Both the position numbers and the translations under genes were made by a program. From Candidatus Eiseniibacteriota bacterium (lineage in GTDB: Bacteria > Eisenbacteria > RBG-16-71-46): a stretch of DNA of 64,000 nucleotides. This document shows, piece by piece, positions 14,610 through 31,400 of this stretch. The stretch spans positions 62,001 to 126,000 of the forward strand of contig JACOSV010000058.1 in NCBI GenBank assembly GCA_016178725.1. Reading direction: 5' to 3'. Each line of letters begins with the position of its first letter. Within the stretch, counting starts at the first letter, position 1. The notes below the pieces were generated by a model. The model was not told where the DNA came from and did no database searches. It saw nothing but the letters and a program-made list of their open reading frames with translations.

Positions 14610-15368
14610 GTGTCTTCTTCGCGAATCGTGTGCGCCCTTTCCGCCGTCATGCTGATCGCCGCGTCCGCGGCATGGGCGTGCGACAAGGACAAAGCCGCGG
14701 CGACCACCGCCGCGAATGGCGCCTGCACCGCCGGCATGGCGGCCACCGCCGCGAACGGCGCCTGCACTGCGAGCATGGCGGCGACGTGCACGGCCGGGAT
14801 GGCGGCCGCGTGCAAGGCCCACATGCAGGCGAGCGGTGCCACCGCCGCGACCGCCTCGTCCCACGCCTGCTGCGCGAAGGGCGCGGCGACCACCGCGGCC
14901 AAGGGCCGGACGCTGAACGTCATGGCCGCCGCCGGCGGCCACTGCGACGGGGGCGGCATGGCCGGGATGGCGACCGCCGATCTCCACGACGATTGCGAGG
15001 CGTGCCTCGACATGGCGAATGCGAGCGAGAGGCTCGACGCCGCCGGCGCGCACCGCCAGACCGTGCGGCTCAAGAACGGCGTGATGCTCGTCTACACCGC
15101 CGACTCGCCGGCGCACGTGAGCGCCGTGCAGGCCGCGATCGCATCGCGCAACGAGCACCTCGCGCACTACGTCGCGGTCGGCGACAAGGTGCGGCTGTGC
15201 AACGGCTGCAAGGCGATCCGCGGCGCGATCGCGAGCGGCAAGCTGAATCGTGAGGTCGTGAACATCCAGGGCGGCGTGCTCACGCTGCTGACCTCGAGCG
15301 ATCCCGCGATCGTGACGAAGATCCACGAGATGACCGACCAGAAGGTGGCGGCTCGCCTCAAGAGCTAG
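14610..15368 (+). CDS. Secreted Cys/Met-repeat protein with conserved C-terminal domain, unknown function
   Basis: 252 residues from GTG, placed by GGAGG 7-11 nt upstream. A Sec signal (SRIVCALSAVMLIAASAAWA) leads to the mature CDKDK. Residues about 35-80 hold four imperfect repeats of the form A/T-C-x3-M-A/Q (CTAGM, CTASM, CTAGM, CKAHM) joined by AATAANGA linkers, then CC, HC and CEAC motifs, about fifteen cysteines in all. The C-terminal about 100 residues are a compact mixed domain (VMLVYTADSPAHVSAVQ, KVRLCNGCKAIRGAI, GGVLTLLTSSDPAIV). Thiol plus thioether spacing suggests soft-metal binding, for example Cu(I), but this is inference. A good hairpin follows, so it is a single-gene unit. Confidence 0.75.
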   Translation: MSSSRIVCALSAVMLIAASAAWACDKDKAAATTAANGACTAGMAATAANGACTASMAATCTAGMAAACKAHMQASGATAATASSHACCAKGAATTAAKGRTLNVMAAAGGHCDGGGMAGMATADLHDDCEACLDMANASERLDAAGAHRQTVRLKNGVMLVYTADSPAHVSAVQAAIASRNEHLAHYVAVGDKVRLCNGCKAIRGAIASGKLNREVVNIQGGVLTLLTSSDPAIVTKIHEMTDQKVAARLKS

Positions 15369-17084: not shown

Positions 17085-17777
17085 ATGAAGCACGTGCTGA
17101 TCGTCGAAGACGAAGAGGGTCTGCTGGAAGGACTGGCGCACAACTTCCGTTACGAGGGCTACGACGTCCTCACCGCGCGCACGGGGCCCGAGGGGCTCAA
17201 GGCGGCGCTCAAGCAGAAGCCGGACCTCGTCGTGCTCGACATCATGCTGCCCGAGAAGGACTGCTTCACCGTGCTCAAGGAGCTGCGGCTGCGGCATCGC
17301 GAGATGCCGGTGCTGGTGATCACGGCGCGCAACTTCGAGGCCGACGTGCTCAAGGGCTTCGACCTCGGCGCGGACGACTACCTGACCAAGCCGTTCGGCA
17401 TCAAGGAGCTGCTCGCGCGCGCCAAGCGGCTGATCCAGCGCGGCCCGAGCGCCGCCGGCTCACCCGGGCCGACCGTCTACACGTTCGGCGACGTCGAGGT
17501 GCGCTTCGAGCCGCGCGAGGTGCTCAAGACCGGCAAGCAGGTGGCGCTCTCGTTCAAGGAATTCGAGCTGCTCAAGTACATGATCGAGCACCGCGGCCGC
17601 ACCGTGTCGCGCGAGGAGCTGCTCGAGGAGATCTGGGGCGTGGACGAGGAGCTGGGCGTCACGACGCGCACCGTGGACACGCACGTCTCGAACCTGCGCT
17701 CGAAGCTCGGCGCGGGGTTCGCGCAGCCGTTCATCGTCGCCGTGCACAAGGTCGGCTACAAGTTCGTCGAGCCCTGA
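17085..17777 (+). CDS. OmpR/PhoB-type response regulator
   Basis: 230 residues from the ATG; a GTG at 17076, nearer the GGGAGGA site, would add VDA. The receiver domain has the acidic pair at E8/D9, phosphoacceptor D52, T80 and K102. It is followed by a winged-helix DNA-binding domain (VALSFKEFELLKYMIEHRGRTVSREELL, TRTVDTHVSNLRSKLG, VHKVGYKF). It binds DNA as a phosphorylated dimer and is the partner of the histidine kinase just upstream. Four bases after its stop a short lipoprotein-like frame begins. Confidence 0.92.
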   Translation: MKHVLIVEDEEGLLEGLAHNFRYEGYDVLTARTGPEGLKAALKQKPDLVVLDIMLPEKDCFTVLKELRLRHREMPVLVITARNFEADVLKGFDLGADDYLTKPFGIKELLARAKRLIQRGPSAAGSPGPTVYTFGDVEVRFEPREVLKTGKQVALSFKEFELLKYMIEHRGRTVSREELLEEIWGVDEELGVTTRTVDTHVSNLRSKLGAGFAQPFIVAVHKVGYKFVEP

Positions 17778-17781
17778 GCGG

Positions 17782-18123
17782 GTGACCCCCGGCCGCACTT
17801 CCGGGTCCCGCGGCACGGCGCTCTCGGCCGCCCTCCTGCTGGCGCTGACGGCAAGCGCCTGCGCGTGCCACGAGGCCGCGGATTCGTCGGCCGCCGCCCC
17901 TGCGCCGTCCGCCGCCGGCGACATGGCCCGACGTGCCGCCGAGGATCATGACGCGCATCGCACGGGATTTGCTCCGCTCGACCGGGAGCGACTAGCTCTT
18001 CTTCTCGGTCGGGCCCATCGGGCCCGGATCGCGCCTCGGACTAGCCGAGCAGCTCGAGGTCCGCCAGATCCCGAGGGCGTCCGAGCGCGCGTTTGTTGCG
18101 GATCAGCTGCTCGCGGCCGATGA
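17782..18123 (+). CDS. Short lipoprotein-like frame, 3' half probably replaced
   Basis: A GTG 4 nt after the response regulator stop opens 113 codons. The first about 65 residues make sense: basic start, hydrophobic core (LSAALLLALTASAC lipobox) and a Ser/Ala/Pro-rich spacer. From about 17990 on, however, the frame runs antisense through the orphan cytochrome tail and then the nucleotidyltransferase 3' end, giving Arg/Ala-rich sequence typical of GC-rich shadow translation. The likeliest reading is a lipoprotein gene, co-transcribed with the two-component system, whose 3' end was lost at the rearrangement. Expression is uncertain. Confidence 0.35.
   Translation: MTPGRTSGSRGTALSAALLLALTASACACHEAADSSAAAPAPSAAGDMARRAAEDHDAHRTGFAPLDRERLALLLGRAHRARIAPRTSRAARGPPDPEGVRARVCCGSAARGR
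17994..18031 (-). repeat. Orphan copy of the cytochrome c 3' end
   Basis: On the minus strand this encodes DPGPMGPTEKKS and, with the preceding CTA at 17992, a stop codon. The intact cytochrome gene ends DPGPVGPTEKKS-stop. The 38 bp match 18682-18719 at 35 positions. It lies 10 bp beyond the stop of the nucleotidyltransferase gene and is not attached to any cytochrome reading frame. Confidence 0.85.
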
Positions 18124-18475
18124 ACGGGCAGTCGAGATCGCCCATCTTCCCGCTCACGCGATCGCGCCAGGCTTCGTCGAACGATACGCCGGTCAGCGAC
18201 GTGAGCACGTCGATCCGACGCGGCGCGACGCCGATCTGATAGACGATCCCGGGCGTCCGGAGATCCGCCTCGCTCAAGTCCTGGAGTGGAGCGCCGAACG
18301 CCTCCAGCGCGCGATGCACCCGGGCGGCGTTCTCCGCCGTGGGCTCGACCCAGATGTCGAGGTCGCCGGTCGCGCGCGGTCGCGCATGCAGCGACACGGC
18401 GTATGCGCCGACGATCAGATAGCGCGCTTCAGCCGCGGAGAGTTCGCGCAACAGCGCGATGAAGTCGTTGCTCAC
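18041..18475 (-). CDS. Small nucleotidyltransferase (DUF6036/AbiEii-like)
   Basis: 144 residues. The core 'YLIVGAYAVSLHARPRATGDLDIWV' is the nucleotidyltransferase signature: a Gly-Ala loop, then R-x-T-x-D-L-D with two metal-binding aspartates. 'GVAPRRIDVLTSLTGVSFDEAW' supplies the third Asp strand, followed by a short helical end (GREQLIRNKRALGRPRDLADLELL). This compact family is close to antitoxin/toxin nucleotidyltransferases of the AbiEii and MNT type, which transfer nucleotides to RNA or protein partners. It overlaps the small upstream gene by 47 bp, so the two are translated together. The pair lies between two copies of the cytochrome c 3' end. Confidence 0.8.
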   Translation of the reverse strand: MSNDFIALLRELSAAEARYLIVGAYAVSLHARPRATGDLDIWVEPTAENAARVHRALEAFGAPLQDLSEADLRTPGIVYQIGVAPRRIDVLTSLTGVSFDEAWRDRVSGKMGDLDCPFIGREQLIRNKRALGRPRDLADLELLG

Positions 18476-18641
18476 CGGCGTCCCATCCCTTGAACCGCCA
18501 GAGTTCGAGGCTCAACTGCCACGCGGACTCGAGCCGCTCCTCGGGCGTGAGGCGCGCCCAGAACGCCCGGTCGATGCGATCGGCATCGGGGCCGAGTCGC
18601 GCCTTCTCGCCCGTGATCGGAGTCGTGCGACGTCCATCCAT
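18429..18641 (-). CDS. 70-residue partner of the nucleotidyltransferase
   Basis: 70 residues, charged and helical, with 'FWARLTPEERLESAWQLSLELWRFKG'. Short proteins with a TPEERL-x-W-x-LS pattern are often found directly before nucleotidyltransferase genes like the one here, as a two-gene toxin-antitoxin-like unit; that pairing is from general knowledge and not proven for this pair. The 47-bp overlap with the next frame supports a shared function. No ribosome binding site is clear. Confidence 0.65.
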   Translation of the reverse strand: MDGRRTTPITGEKARLGPDADRIDRAFWARLTPEERLESAWQLSLELWRFKGWDAGEQRLHRAVARTLRG

Positions 18642-18679
18642 GCGGCGAGCCTACCACGGCGTCGCCGCGTCCGATTCCG

Positions 18680-19654
18680 TCAGCTCTTCTTCTCGGTCGG
18701 CCCCACCGGGCCGGGATCGTGGGTCGAGGGCGGCACGGTCTTGATGTAGCGGTAGATCGCGCGCAGGTCGTCCTCGTCGAGCTTCATCAGTCCCTGCCAC
18801 GGCATCGGTGAGCCGGGCAGCAGGCGCCCGGCGCGCAGCCGCGTGACGAACTGATCCTCGCTCATCGATCCGAGCCGGCCGTGCGTGGGATCGACGGTGA
18901 TGTTGGGCGTCGACCAGTAGCGGCCCCGCTCGTCGGTGATGAATCCCGCCGAGCCGCCGAGCCTGGGCCCCGTGAAGGCGCCGGTCTTCTCGTCGCGCTG
19001 CGTGTGGCAGCTCACGCACAGCGCCACCGATTCGACCAGGTAGCGTCCGTTCTCGGCCGTCGCGCCCCGCGGACTCTTCGCCGTGACGTCGGGCTTCGGC
19101 CCGACGGGGCTGGCGAGCACGGTCGCCTTCAGCACGCTGCCCAGCGCCGAGTACCGATGCGCCGACACGACGTTGTGCACCGGCGGCTGCGCCTTGAGGT
19201 ACGACACCACGGCGATCAGATCTTCGTCCGAGAATCCCTGGAATTCCATGAACGGCAGCAGCGCGCGGCCGTCGATGCCGACGCCGCTGCGCAGCGCGCG
19301 CGCGATCGCCTTCGCCGGCGCGGCGCCGATTCCGGTCTCGGCGTCGGGCGTGATGTTGCGCACGTAGAACGTGCCCGGCGGGATGTCGAAGACCCGTCCG
19401 CCGATGAGCGGCACGTCGGCGCCGCTCAGCATCGCCTGCACCTGCGTCGTGTCGCCGTGGCACTGCGCGCAGTTGGCCATGTCGCGGACGATGTAGCGCC
19501 CGCGCGCGACGACGGCGCTGTCGGTGGACGCCTCGAGGGGCGGATACGGCGTCGCGGCGAACGAGAGGTGCTGCCGCGAGGCGACGAAGACCGCGATCCC
19601 CGCGACGAGCACCACCACGAGCACGACCAGGATCAGCAGGACCTTGCGGATCAT
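18680..19654 (-). CDS. Dihaem c-type cytochrome, membrane anchored
   Basis: 324 residues. One N-terminal membrane helix (KVLLILVVLVVVLVAGIAVFVAS) anchors two periplasmic cytochrome c domains with haem sites CAQCH (about residue 62) and CVSCH (about residue 212). Downstream methionines in each domain can be axial ligands. The arrangement is that of alcohol-dehydrogenase-type subunit II and related electron carriers, so it probably hands electrons to a terminal oxidase; no dehydrogenase gene is adjacent. AAAGGAAGG lies 6-14 nt before the ATG. Its terminal 38 bp occur again at 17994-18031. Confidence 0.9.
   Translation of the reverse strand: MIRKVLLILVVLVVVLVAGIAVFVASRQHLSFAATPYPPLEASTDSAVVARGRYIVRDMANCAQCHGDTTQVQAMLSGADVPLIGGRVFDIPPGTFYVRNITPDAETGIGAAPAKAIARALRSGVGIDGRALLPFMEFQGFSDEDLIAVVSYLKAQPPVHNVVSAHRYSALGSVLKATVLASPVGPKPDVTAKSPRGATAENGRYLVESVALCVSCHTQRDEKTGAFTGPRLGGSAGFITDERGRYWSTPNITVDPTHGRLGSMSEDQFVTRLRAGRLLPGSPMPWQGLMKLDEDDLRAIYRYIKTVPPSTHDPGPVGPTEKKS
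18682..18719 (-). repeat. Cytochrome c 3' end (repeat partner)
   Basis: Last coding bases of the intact cytochrome gene; matches 17994-18031 at 35 of 38 positions. The two copies are in the same orientation, 688 bp apart, and bracket the nucleotidyltransferase pair. Confidence 0.85.
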
Positions 19655-19688
19655 CGACGCCTTCCTTTCCGGTGACGGGTGGACATCC

Positions 19689-20618
19689 TCACGGCCGAAC
19701 CTCGGACGACCCGCGCTCCGCCGCCGCGCGCGCGAGCCGCGCGAACTCCTCGAGCGTCAGCGTCTCGCCGCGGCGCTGCGGATCGATCCCCGCCTGACGG
19801 GCGAGCCGCGCGACCGCGTCCTTGCCGAGCGCGAGCGTCTCCTCGAGCGTGTTCATCAGCTGCTTGCGGCGCATGTGAAACGAGCCGCGGATGACGCGGA
19901 ACAGCAGCGCCTCGTCGGGCACGTCCACCGGCGGGTGGTCGCGCAGGAAGAACCGCACCAGCATGCTGTCCACGTCGGGCCGCGGCCAGAACGACGCGGC
20001 GGTCACGCGCATGAGCGGCTCCATCCGCGCGTGGTAGCGCGCGAACAGCGTCAGCGCGCCGTACTCGGGCGTGCCGGCGGCGGCGGCGAGGCGCTCGGCG
20101 TACTCCTTCTGCACCAGCAGCACCGCACGCGTCACCACCGAGCGCTGCGCGAAGATCCGTTCGAGGATCGGCGTGGTGATGTTGTACGGGATGTTGCCGA
20201 CCACCACGAGCCGTTCGGCGCCGTGTTCGGCGGCGAGCGCCGCGAGATCGAGCTCGAGGAAGTCGCCCTCGATCAGATCCACGCCGGGGAAGCCGGCCGC
20301 CTCCTCGCGCATCGCCGCGGCGAGCCCGCGGTCGAGCTCGACCGCGATCAGCTTCCGCACGCGGCGGGCGAGGCGGAACGTCAGCGCGCCCGCGCCCGGA
20401 CCGATCTCGACCGCCACGTCGGCGGGATCGAGCCGCGCGTGGTCCACGATGCGCTCGGCGGTCTCCTCACGGATCAGGAAGTTCTGGCCGAAGCGCTTGC
20501 GCGGCGAGAGGCCGTGCACGGCGAGCAGATCCTTGACGCGGGCGGCTTCGCCGGGCTCGGTCGCGGCGCGGCGGCGCACGTACGCGGAGGCGCGCGGCGC
20601 GCGCGGCGGACGGACCAT
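19689..20618 (-). CDS. rsmA: 16S rRNA (adenine1518/1519-N6)-dimethyltransferase RsmA (KsgA)
   Basis: 309 residues. 'RKRFGQNFL' at the N-terminus, motif I 'AVEIGPGAGALTFRLA', 'AVELDRGL' and the catalytic 'VGNIPYNITTPIL' (N-x-P-Y) are diagnostic of KsgA. The C-terminal domain shows 'FWPRPDVDSMLVRF' and 'RGSFHMRRKQLMNTL'. It dimethylates two adjacent adenines in helix 45 of 16S rRNA during late 30S assembly. The N-terminus is 30 residues longer than usual and basic, so a downstream start is possible. It is the last gene of the minus-strand run metG, kinase, tatD, HEAT protein, rsmA. Confidence 0.95.
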   Translation of the reverse strand: MVRPPRAPRASAYVRRRAATEPGEAARVKDLLAVHGLSPRKRFGQNFLIREETAERIVDHARLDPADVAVEIGPGAGALTFRLARRVRKLIAVELDRGLAAAMREEAAGFPGVDLIEGDFLELDLAALAAEHGAERLVVVGNIPYNITTPILERIFAQRSVVTRAVLLVQKEYAERLAAAAGTPEYGALTLFARYHARMEPLMRVTAASFWPRPDVDSMLVRFFLRDHPPVDVPDEALLFRVIRGSFHMRRKQLMNTLEETLALGKDAVARLARQAGIDPQRRGETLTLEEFARLARAAAERGSSEVRP

Positions 20619-29657: not shown

Positions 29658-31400
29658 TCAGGGGATCAGGGCGAGCTTTTCGACCCGTGCCGGCGCGGCG
29701 CCGGCGCGCACCACCGCCAGATAGACGCCGGCCGGGAGCCGGGCGCCCGCGGCGTCGCGGCCGTCCCAGTCGAGCGTGTGCGGCCCGGGGGCGAGCGCCA
29801 CGCCGTCGAGGAGCACGCGCACCGTGCGGCCGCTCACGTCCGTGATGCGCGCGTCCACGCGCGATTCGGCATCGAGCGAGAACGCGAGGCGCGTCGCGAC
29901 GCGCATGGGATTCGGCGCGGCGGCGAGCGCCACCGGCGGCAGCGCCGGCAGGCCGGGCACGTCCACGGTCGGCACGCCGCCCGCGCCCGCGATCCGCTGT
30001 GCGTAGAGGTCGGCGCTCGTGCCGCGCTGATCGGACCACGCGATGATCGCGCCGCCCGTGCCGTCGGCCATGATCGAGTTCAGGTACTGGTCGCCGGCGG
30101 CGCCGCAGTACACGGCGCCGTTCGCGCTCCATCCCGCAGGCAGCGTGCCCGCGCCGCTGACCCGCAGCGCGTAGACGTCGGTCGCCGCGGCGCCGGTGCG
30201 CTGGTCGTTCCACGCGATGAACGCCCCGCCCGCCGCGTCGCTCGCGACCGCAGGATCGAATTGGTTGCCGTCCGCGGTGCAGATCGCGAGACCGTTCGCC
30301 GGCCAGCCGGCGGCGATCGCGCCGGCGGGCGTCGCGTGCTGGGCGTAGATGTCGCTCAATCCCGCGCGCAGGTCGATCCAGGCGACGAACGCGCCGCCCG
30401 CGCCGTCCGCCGCGATCGAGCCGCCGTACTGTTCGGCGAGGTCGGTGCAGATCGCGAGGCCGTCGGCGGTCCACTTCGCCGCGCCGTCGGCGCCGATGCG
30501 CTGCGCGTACACGTCCGAGTTGTCCGAACGATGGTCCTCCCACTCGACCAGCACGCCGCCCGCGCCGTCGCTCGCCGCGTGGAGCTCGATCTGATCGCCC
30601 GCGGCGGTCGTGACCGGGACGCCGTTCGTCGCCCACTGCACCACGCCGGAAATACTGACGCGCTGCGCGAACACGTCGCCGTTGCCGGCGCCGTTGCGGT
30701 CGTCCTCCCAGACGATGATCGCGCCGCCCGCGCCGTCCGTGACCGCGACCGGGAACCGCTGGTCGCCGGCGGCCGCGCAGATCGGGATGCCGCTCACGGT
30801 CCACTGCGCGATACCCGCCGTGTTGACGCGCTGGGCATAGATGTCGCCCAAGCCGCTGCGGAAGTCCTCCCAGACCACGATCGCGCCGCCCGCGCCATCG
30901 CGCACGATGCTGGGGTGTCCCTGCACGCTGGTGAGCGTGCACACGTCCACGCCGCTCGCGGGCCAGCCGGCGGCGATCGCGCCGCCCGCGTTGACGCGCT
31001 GGACGTAGATGTCGGGGTTCGATCCGCCGGCGCGGTAATCCTCCCAGGCGATGTACGCGCCGCCGACGCCGTCGGAGGCGATCACGGGCGCCACCTGATC
31101 CTGCGCCGCGGTGCACAGCGCGCGTCCATCGGCCGGCCAGCCGCTGCCGAGCACGCCGTTCGGTCCGACGCGCATCGCGTAGACATCGCTCGCGGTGCCG
31201 CGGCGATCCTCCCAGACGGCGATCGCGCCGCCGGTGCCGTCGGGCGCCATCACCGGGTAGTTCTGGTCGCCGCTCGCGGTGCAGAGCGCGCGGCCGTCCA
31301 CCGGCCAGGCGGCGTGCGCCGGCGCGGCGCACGCGGCGAGCGCCAGGGCGCAGAGGGCGGCGCGAACGAGCGCGCGATCGAGTGAGCGCATGCGGAGCAT
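29658..31400 (-). CDS. Secreted eight-repeat protein with C-terminal FlgD-like Ig domain
   Basis: 580 residues from the ATG at 31400. A signal peptide (RAALCALALAACAAPAHA) precedes eight tandem repeats of about 54-58 residues. Each starts W-P/T/A-x2-G, has a C-T/A near residue 9, 'D-G-x-G-G-A' and 'V/A-W-E-D-x-R', and ends 'D-I/V-Y-A-Q-R-V'; this is a beta-propeller-like pattern. The last about 90 residues (PNPMRVATRLAFSL, ITDVSGRTVRVLL, LDWDGRDAAGARLPAGVYL) are the FlgD Ig/T9SS-like C-terminal domain typical of secreted proteins in Eisenbacteria and relatives. It is likely a surface or released protein; no ligand can be named. Confidence 0.85.
   Translation of the reverse strand: MLRMRSLDRALVRAALCALALAACAAPAHAAWPVDGRALCTASGDQNYPVMAPDGTGGAIAVWEDRRGTASDVYAMRVGPNGVLGSGWPADGRALCTAAQDQVAPVIASDGVGGAYIAWEDYRAGGSNPDIYVQRVNAGGAIAAGWPASGVDVCTLTSVQGHPSIVRDGAGGAIVVWEDFRSGLGDIYAQRVNTAGIAQWTVSGIPICAAAGDQRFPVAVTDGAGGAIIVWEDDRNGAGNGDVFAQRVSISGVVQWATNGVPVTTAAGDQIELHAASDGAGGVLVEWEDHRSDNSDVYAQRIGADGAAKWTADGLAICTDLAEQYGGSIAADGAGGAFVAWIDLRAGLSDIYAQHATPAGAIAAGWPANGLAICTADGNQFDPAVASDAAGGAFIAWNDQRTGAAATDVYALRVSGAGTLPAGWSANGAVYCGAAGDQYLNSIMADGTGGAIIAWSDQRGTSADLYAQRIAGAGGVPTVDVPGLPALPPVALAAAPNPMRVATRLAFSLDAESRVDARITDVSGRTVRVLLDGVALAPGPHTLDWDGRDAAGARLPAGVYLAVVRAGAAPARVEKLALIP

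Follow-up and report, generated by a model that had tools for sequence, protein, structure and literature searches.

A MenT1-like gene pair between two copies of a cytochrome c gene end in Candidatus Eiseniibacteriota: a likely insertion with target duplication

How the last codons of one cytochrome c gene came to stand on both sides of a nucleotidyltransferase gene pair is the question raised by a 64,000-nucleotide stretch of Candidatus Eiseniibacteriota DNA (hereafter the window). On the minus strand of this stretch, the order of features is cytochrome c, a small gene, the nucleotidyltransferase (NT) gene and an orphan copy of the cytochrome tail (Table 1). On the plus strand, a histidine kinase gene, a response regulator gene and a lipoprotein-like ORF run towards the minus-strand genes. 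We consider it likely that a toxin-antitoxin-like unit, self-contained and equipped with a -10 box, was inserted at the cytochrome 3' end and duplicated about 38 bp of its target. By this route, the small gene and NT would have entered together where the cytochrome gene ends; with about 38 bp of target copied, the cytochrome would retain its full 3' end, and the second copy would be left orphaned past the unit.

Table 1. Positions of the features at the cytochrome c locus, numbered from the first letter of the window.
Feature	Position	Strand	Remarks
Cytochrome c gene, intact	18680..19654	-	ORF; 324 aa, two cytochrome c domains; proposed insertion target
38-bp repeat copy within intact cytochrome gene	18682..18719	-	reaches first base of stop codon
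Putative inserted unit, 650 bp	18032..18681	-	-10-like box, small gene and NT gene; extent taken from the region between the repeats
Extended -10-like box TGGTAGGCT	18648..18656	-	directly 5' of the ATG of the small gene
Small gene, putative antitoxin	18429..18641	-	70 aa; two predicted helices; overlaps NT start
Nucleotidyltransferase (NT) gene, MenT1-like	18041..18475	-	144 aa; invariant T36, D38, D40, K128, D139 (20 aligned members)
38-bp repeat copy past NT gene (orphan tail)	17994..18031	-	35/38 identical; own TAG stop ends at 17992
Short lipoprotein-like ORF	17782..18123	+	ORF; convergent with cytochrome; true 3' end uncertain

The duplicated cytochrome c gene end

The intact cytochrome, which was assigned by Pfam matches to PF13442 (1.7e-12) and PF00034 (2.5e-11), ends in DPGPVGPTEKKS-TGA. 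The orphan tail, DPGPMGPTEKKS-TAG (17992-18030), lies on the same strand 9 bases past the NT stop codon. Realignment confirmed the duplication of 35/38 bp claimed in the original prediction (45 bp at 87% when extended) with a local alignment score of 61, compared to maxima of 38 for 200 dinucleotide-type shuffles and 37 for 1500 upstream/downstream pairings across different loci. The tail was found to be an orphan as described, with the NT gene and no cytochrome upstream of it. When the 3.07-Mb draft assembly was searched for further copies using a degenerate pattern (≤3 mismatches), just two were detected, which rules out a genome-wide repeat element. The tail was likewise ruled out as a component of the NT unit, since no trace of it was found around NT at six other loci of the family.

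Three differences separate the shared codons of the two copies, of which two are synonymous and one is V/M. Because the window copies thus differ by 8% (3/38), the event would be old or the two copies would come from different sources. The orphan copy runs on into its own TAG, as the original gene end would, and the last two bases (GA) of the cytochrome's TGA are supplied by the insert; this arrangement of stop codons fits, without proving, an insertion inside the stop codon. Orthologues of the cytochrome (approximately 60% identical) were found in six family genomes and align only to about residue 317, and hence the tail itself is not comparable across relatives.

In-silico joining of the window flanks into an empty site left the cytochrome intact with either copy and the end of the lipoprotein ORF ambiguous. 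The start of this ORF lies just past the regulator's stop codon; its true 3' end is uncertain, as the ORF crosses the orphan tail into NT antisense. Two other repetitive regions were observed in the window. The first (14699-14819) consists of short tandem repeats, in frame and with units of 39 and 24 bp, in an ORF rich in alanine, methionine and cysteine that precedes the histidine kinase gene. The second (30219-31314) is a cluster of direct repeats, imperfect and 45-100 bp long with a spacing of 490-1000, probably within a gene for a repetitive protein.

The gene pair and its flanking duplications at other loci

Six family genomes encode NT proteins approximately 65-79% identical to that of the window; their genes lie at loci other than the window's and are in each case preceded by the small gene. 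By a scan of public genomes and two phylum searches, the pair was also detected in Gemmatimonadota, Myxococcota/Deltaproteobacteria, Acidobacteria, Planctomycetes and others; the pair therefore occurs at unrelated loci in many phyla. Distant NT relatives were present in six plasmid records. Two Acidisarcina polymorpha plasmids (NZ_CP030844.1 and NZ_CP030843.1) encode an NT with 43% identity to that of the window, and thus the wider NT family occurs on plasmids too. Phage cargo was ruled out, as NT had no match in 50,697 phage records.

Direct repeats at these other loci were scored as tightly bracketing when the left copy ended no more than 120 bp before the start of the small gene and the right copy began no more than 60 bp from the NT stop. 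With the window left out, 4/132 pairs were tightly bracketed, compared to 0.17% of pseudo-unit positions in 1.16 Mb of control DNA around 60 NT loci (binomial p ~8e-5, an approximate value as the control hits are concentrated in two regions rich in repeats). The four repeats span 41-216 bp: 41 bp at 37/41 in genome G018, 82 bp at 100% identity in G550, 216 bp at ~95% in Sorangium, and 49 bp at locus L185, the last being a weak case. No tight repeat was detected at the remaining 128/132 pairs; at these, either the repeat decayed or the pair arrived another way. When repeats were counted irrespective of geometry, they were found at 15/~167 loci (12/119 plus 3/48) versus 25/882 control positions. 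Several of the looser repeats are tRNA copies or duplicated neighbour genes, and for this reason the evidence was restricted to the tight geometry. A separate case was noted at locus L160, where a 225-bp repeat (128-352 and 1737-1961, ~96% identical) surrounds another NT gene and extends from the last part of one gene into the beginning of an NAD-synthase-like gene; a larger unit may have been inserted there in the same way.

For two of these other insertions, relatives with an empty site were found. In G550, a unit of 788 bp separates the convergent genes PlsC and FabH. Its 82-bp duplication includes the ends of both genes, and thus both neighbours are intact; a lone FabH tail stands on the far side, the same arrangement of a lone gene tail beyond the unit as in the window. 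In three relatives of this genome (G828, G757 and G827), PlsC is directly beside FabH, with a single copy of the sequence and no NT. Similarly, the G018 unit, with its 41-bp duplication, lies between ompA and map, which are neighbours without the pair in six relatives. The original prediction of a mobile cassette with a defence-like or toxin-antitoxin-like pair as cargo is supported by the unrelated loci, the repeated bracketing by target DNA and the two empty sites.

The window unit consists of just two genes, neither of them a transposase gene, and its repeat would stem from the same type of event as those above, that is, a long target duplication of variable length by a unit that encodes no transposase. 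Insertion with duplication of a long and variable stretch of target (on the order of 100 bp) has been described for restriction-modification systems (Nobusato et al. 2000, as related in PMC1643837, PMC3031569 and PMC3874152). As far as these accounts relate it, that process resembles the present one in that the unit is small and self-maintaining with no visible transposase, that direct repeats of target sequence, long and variable, flank it, and that some relatives have the site empty (here for G550 and G018). It differs in that the cargo here is a nucleotidyltransferase/small-protein pair and not restriction-modification genes, the repeats here are 38-216 bp, and the hosts here are Eisenbacteria and Myxococcota, not Helicobacter; with this cargo, the published pattern is extended to another kind of gene. 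Text searches returned no report of a nucleotidyltransferase pair inserted with long target duplication, a result of little weight as subscription papers lie mostly outside their coverage. Unit ends at the cases compared by eye share no obvious sequence. We infer the insertion chemistry of the window unit by analogy; the duplication may come from a filled-in staggered break, template switching or integration at short homology.

A variant of the last of these routes would leave copies that were never identical: the unit may have arrived on DNA of a related organism (e.g., as a circle, by single crossover) that already carried a diverged cytochrome tail. The 8% divergence of the window copies and the two synonymous changes among the three are as expected from such an integration, and the variable repeat length also fits. 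The G550 copies, by contrast, are identical over 82 bp, and a donor would be needed that carries the unit beside the same gene end every time, an arrangement seen in no relative. This origin is therefore considered unlikely.

The same interval in relatives

Near relatives by name in a public collection are Candidatus Eisenbacteria, and the set for this phylum comprised 47 genomes. The response regulator is present in 19/20 family genomes, and the interval between it and KsgA was judged in 15 of the 18 relatives examined, namely those with both genes on the fetched contig. Neither the NT pair nor a second cytochrome was found between the regulator and KsgA in any of the 15. Distant G008 is the only one of the 15 with a cytochrome in the interval. 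It has the order KsgA-cytochrome-regulator without the pair, and a protease-like ORF fills the gap; a clean empty site matching that of the window was seen in no close relative. The synteny check suggested with the original prediction, whether relatives lack the pair and have the regulator-side gene directly beside the cytochrome, thus has an answer only at a distance: G008 lacks the pair, with another ORF between cytochrome and regulator. Within the family, the content of the regulator-KsgA interval varies. Between the convergent regulator and KsgA genes (17777-19689 in the window; loci L049 and L096), this slot may be empty or may hold the cytochrome and protease-like ORF of G008 or, in G001 of the same genus, a glycosyltransferase and a TPR protein.

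These comparisons bear on whether the tail is the remnant of a tandem cytochrome gene, lost save for its last 38 bases, with the NT pair having come independently or having replaced the second gene. The unlike stop codons (TGA/TAG) and the two synonymous differences would be in keeping with coding divergence between paralogues; two synonymous changes among only three differences are, however, weak evidence. No complete second cytochrome, the finding named in advance as contrary to a cassette, is present at this place in the 15 family genomes in which the interval is visible. The organism's own genome also has no second close cytochrome (the best other is 37% identical over 180 residues, on another contig), and the repeat stops exactly at the unit edges, as it does at four other NT loci. 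The orphan tail is thus probably not a dead paralogue, and we regard a decayed tandem gene as an improbable source. The repeat is short and the draft assembly consists of 88 contigs, but chance similarity or an assembly artefact is very improbable: the repeat's score of 61 compares with at most 38 in the nulls, the copies differ at three sites and both lie inside one 132-kb contig, and such repeats are rare in control DNA. Insertion of the unit with duplication of the cytochrome end remains the preferred reading.

Relationship of the pair to MenAT1

The predicted structure of NT (model pLDDT 94.7) was compared to the PDB, and its five best matches were all MenT1 structures, either of the protein by itself, of its phosphorylated form or of its complex with MenA1 (E 4.6e-8 to 4.2e-6). 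MenT1 was also the best PDB sequence match (1.9e-5) to a profile of 20 NT members. MenT1 lengthens the acceptor stems of tRNAs, and its blocker is MenA1, a protein of 68 aa encoded upstream (PMC10435456, PMC11375011). The MenT1 residues T39, D41, K137 and D152, all four examined by mutagenesis (PMC10435456, PMC11375011), align to NT T36, D38, K128 and D139, which are invariant in the 20 members. The window pair is thus similar to MenAT1 of Mycobacterium tuberculosis in nucleotidyltransferase fold, the four functionally tested residues and a small upstream partner (70 versus 68 aa). It differs in that NT is ~25% identical to MenT1 over the fold and shorter (144 versus ~190 aa), and in that the small partner has no detectable similarity to MenA1.

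A known defence system or named family was ruled out, the window pair having no PADLOC or NCBIfam match; one weak PHROG match, of unknown function, was found. Likeness to AbiEii/DUF6036 proteins is limited to weak profile matches among the 20 members (PF08843 in 12/20, PF19502 in 11/20 and PADLOC AbiEii in up to 10/20). The window NT, by contrast, has no match to PF08843 (DUF1814/AbiEii) above the Pfam cut-off, to which its relatives match weakly, and no PADLOC match, and its 70-aa partner belongs to no Pfam family above cut-off and is not an AbiEi-type regulator.

The small partner was found upstream of 142/174 NT genes, and the window's was modelled with two helices (pLDDT 78.9) and no detectable homology to MenA1. 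A TANNNT motif occurs at the distance of the -10-like box in 72/118 loci versus 12/118 in a control window. Most units would thus have a -10 box of their own, and with this box directly upstream of the small gene at 72/118 loci the unit apparently has a promoter of its own. Based on the MenT1-like fold, the conserved residues, the MenA1-sized partner upstream and the -10 box, the pair is probably toxin-antitoxin-like, its toxicity being read across from MenT1. By the same analogy, NT would add nucleotides to tRNA ends, as MenT1 does, and the small protein would block NT as MenA1 blocks MenT1.

The mechanism, a long target duplication by a unit without transposase, and the relationship to MenT1 go beyond the original prediction. 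A broader reading, which we offer tentatively and consider rather doubtful, is that of a widespread nucleotidyltransferase toxin-antitoxin unit, with a new antitoxin family, that spreads itself across phyla by transposase-free insertion, duplicating 40-200 bp at gene junctions and leaving the neighbours intact. The small partner may represent a new family of antitoxins to MenT-like enzymes, and the NT pair family provides more than 130 small, alignable units in several phyla, most with a promoter-like box. As some of these units are flanked by near-identical repeats and matched by empty sites in related genomes, the insertion step is open to comparative study, which bears on how toxin-antitoxin and restriction-modification genes move outside recognisable mobile elements.
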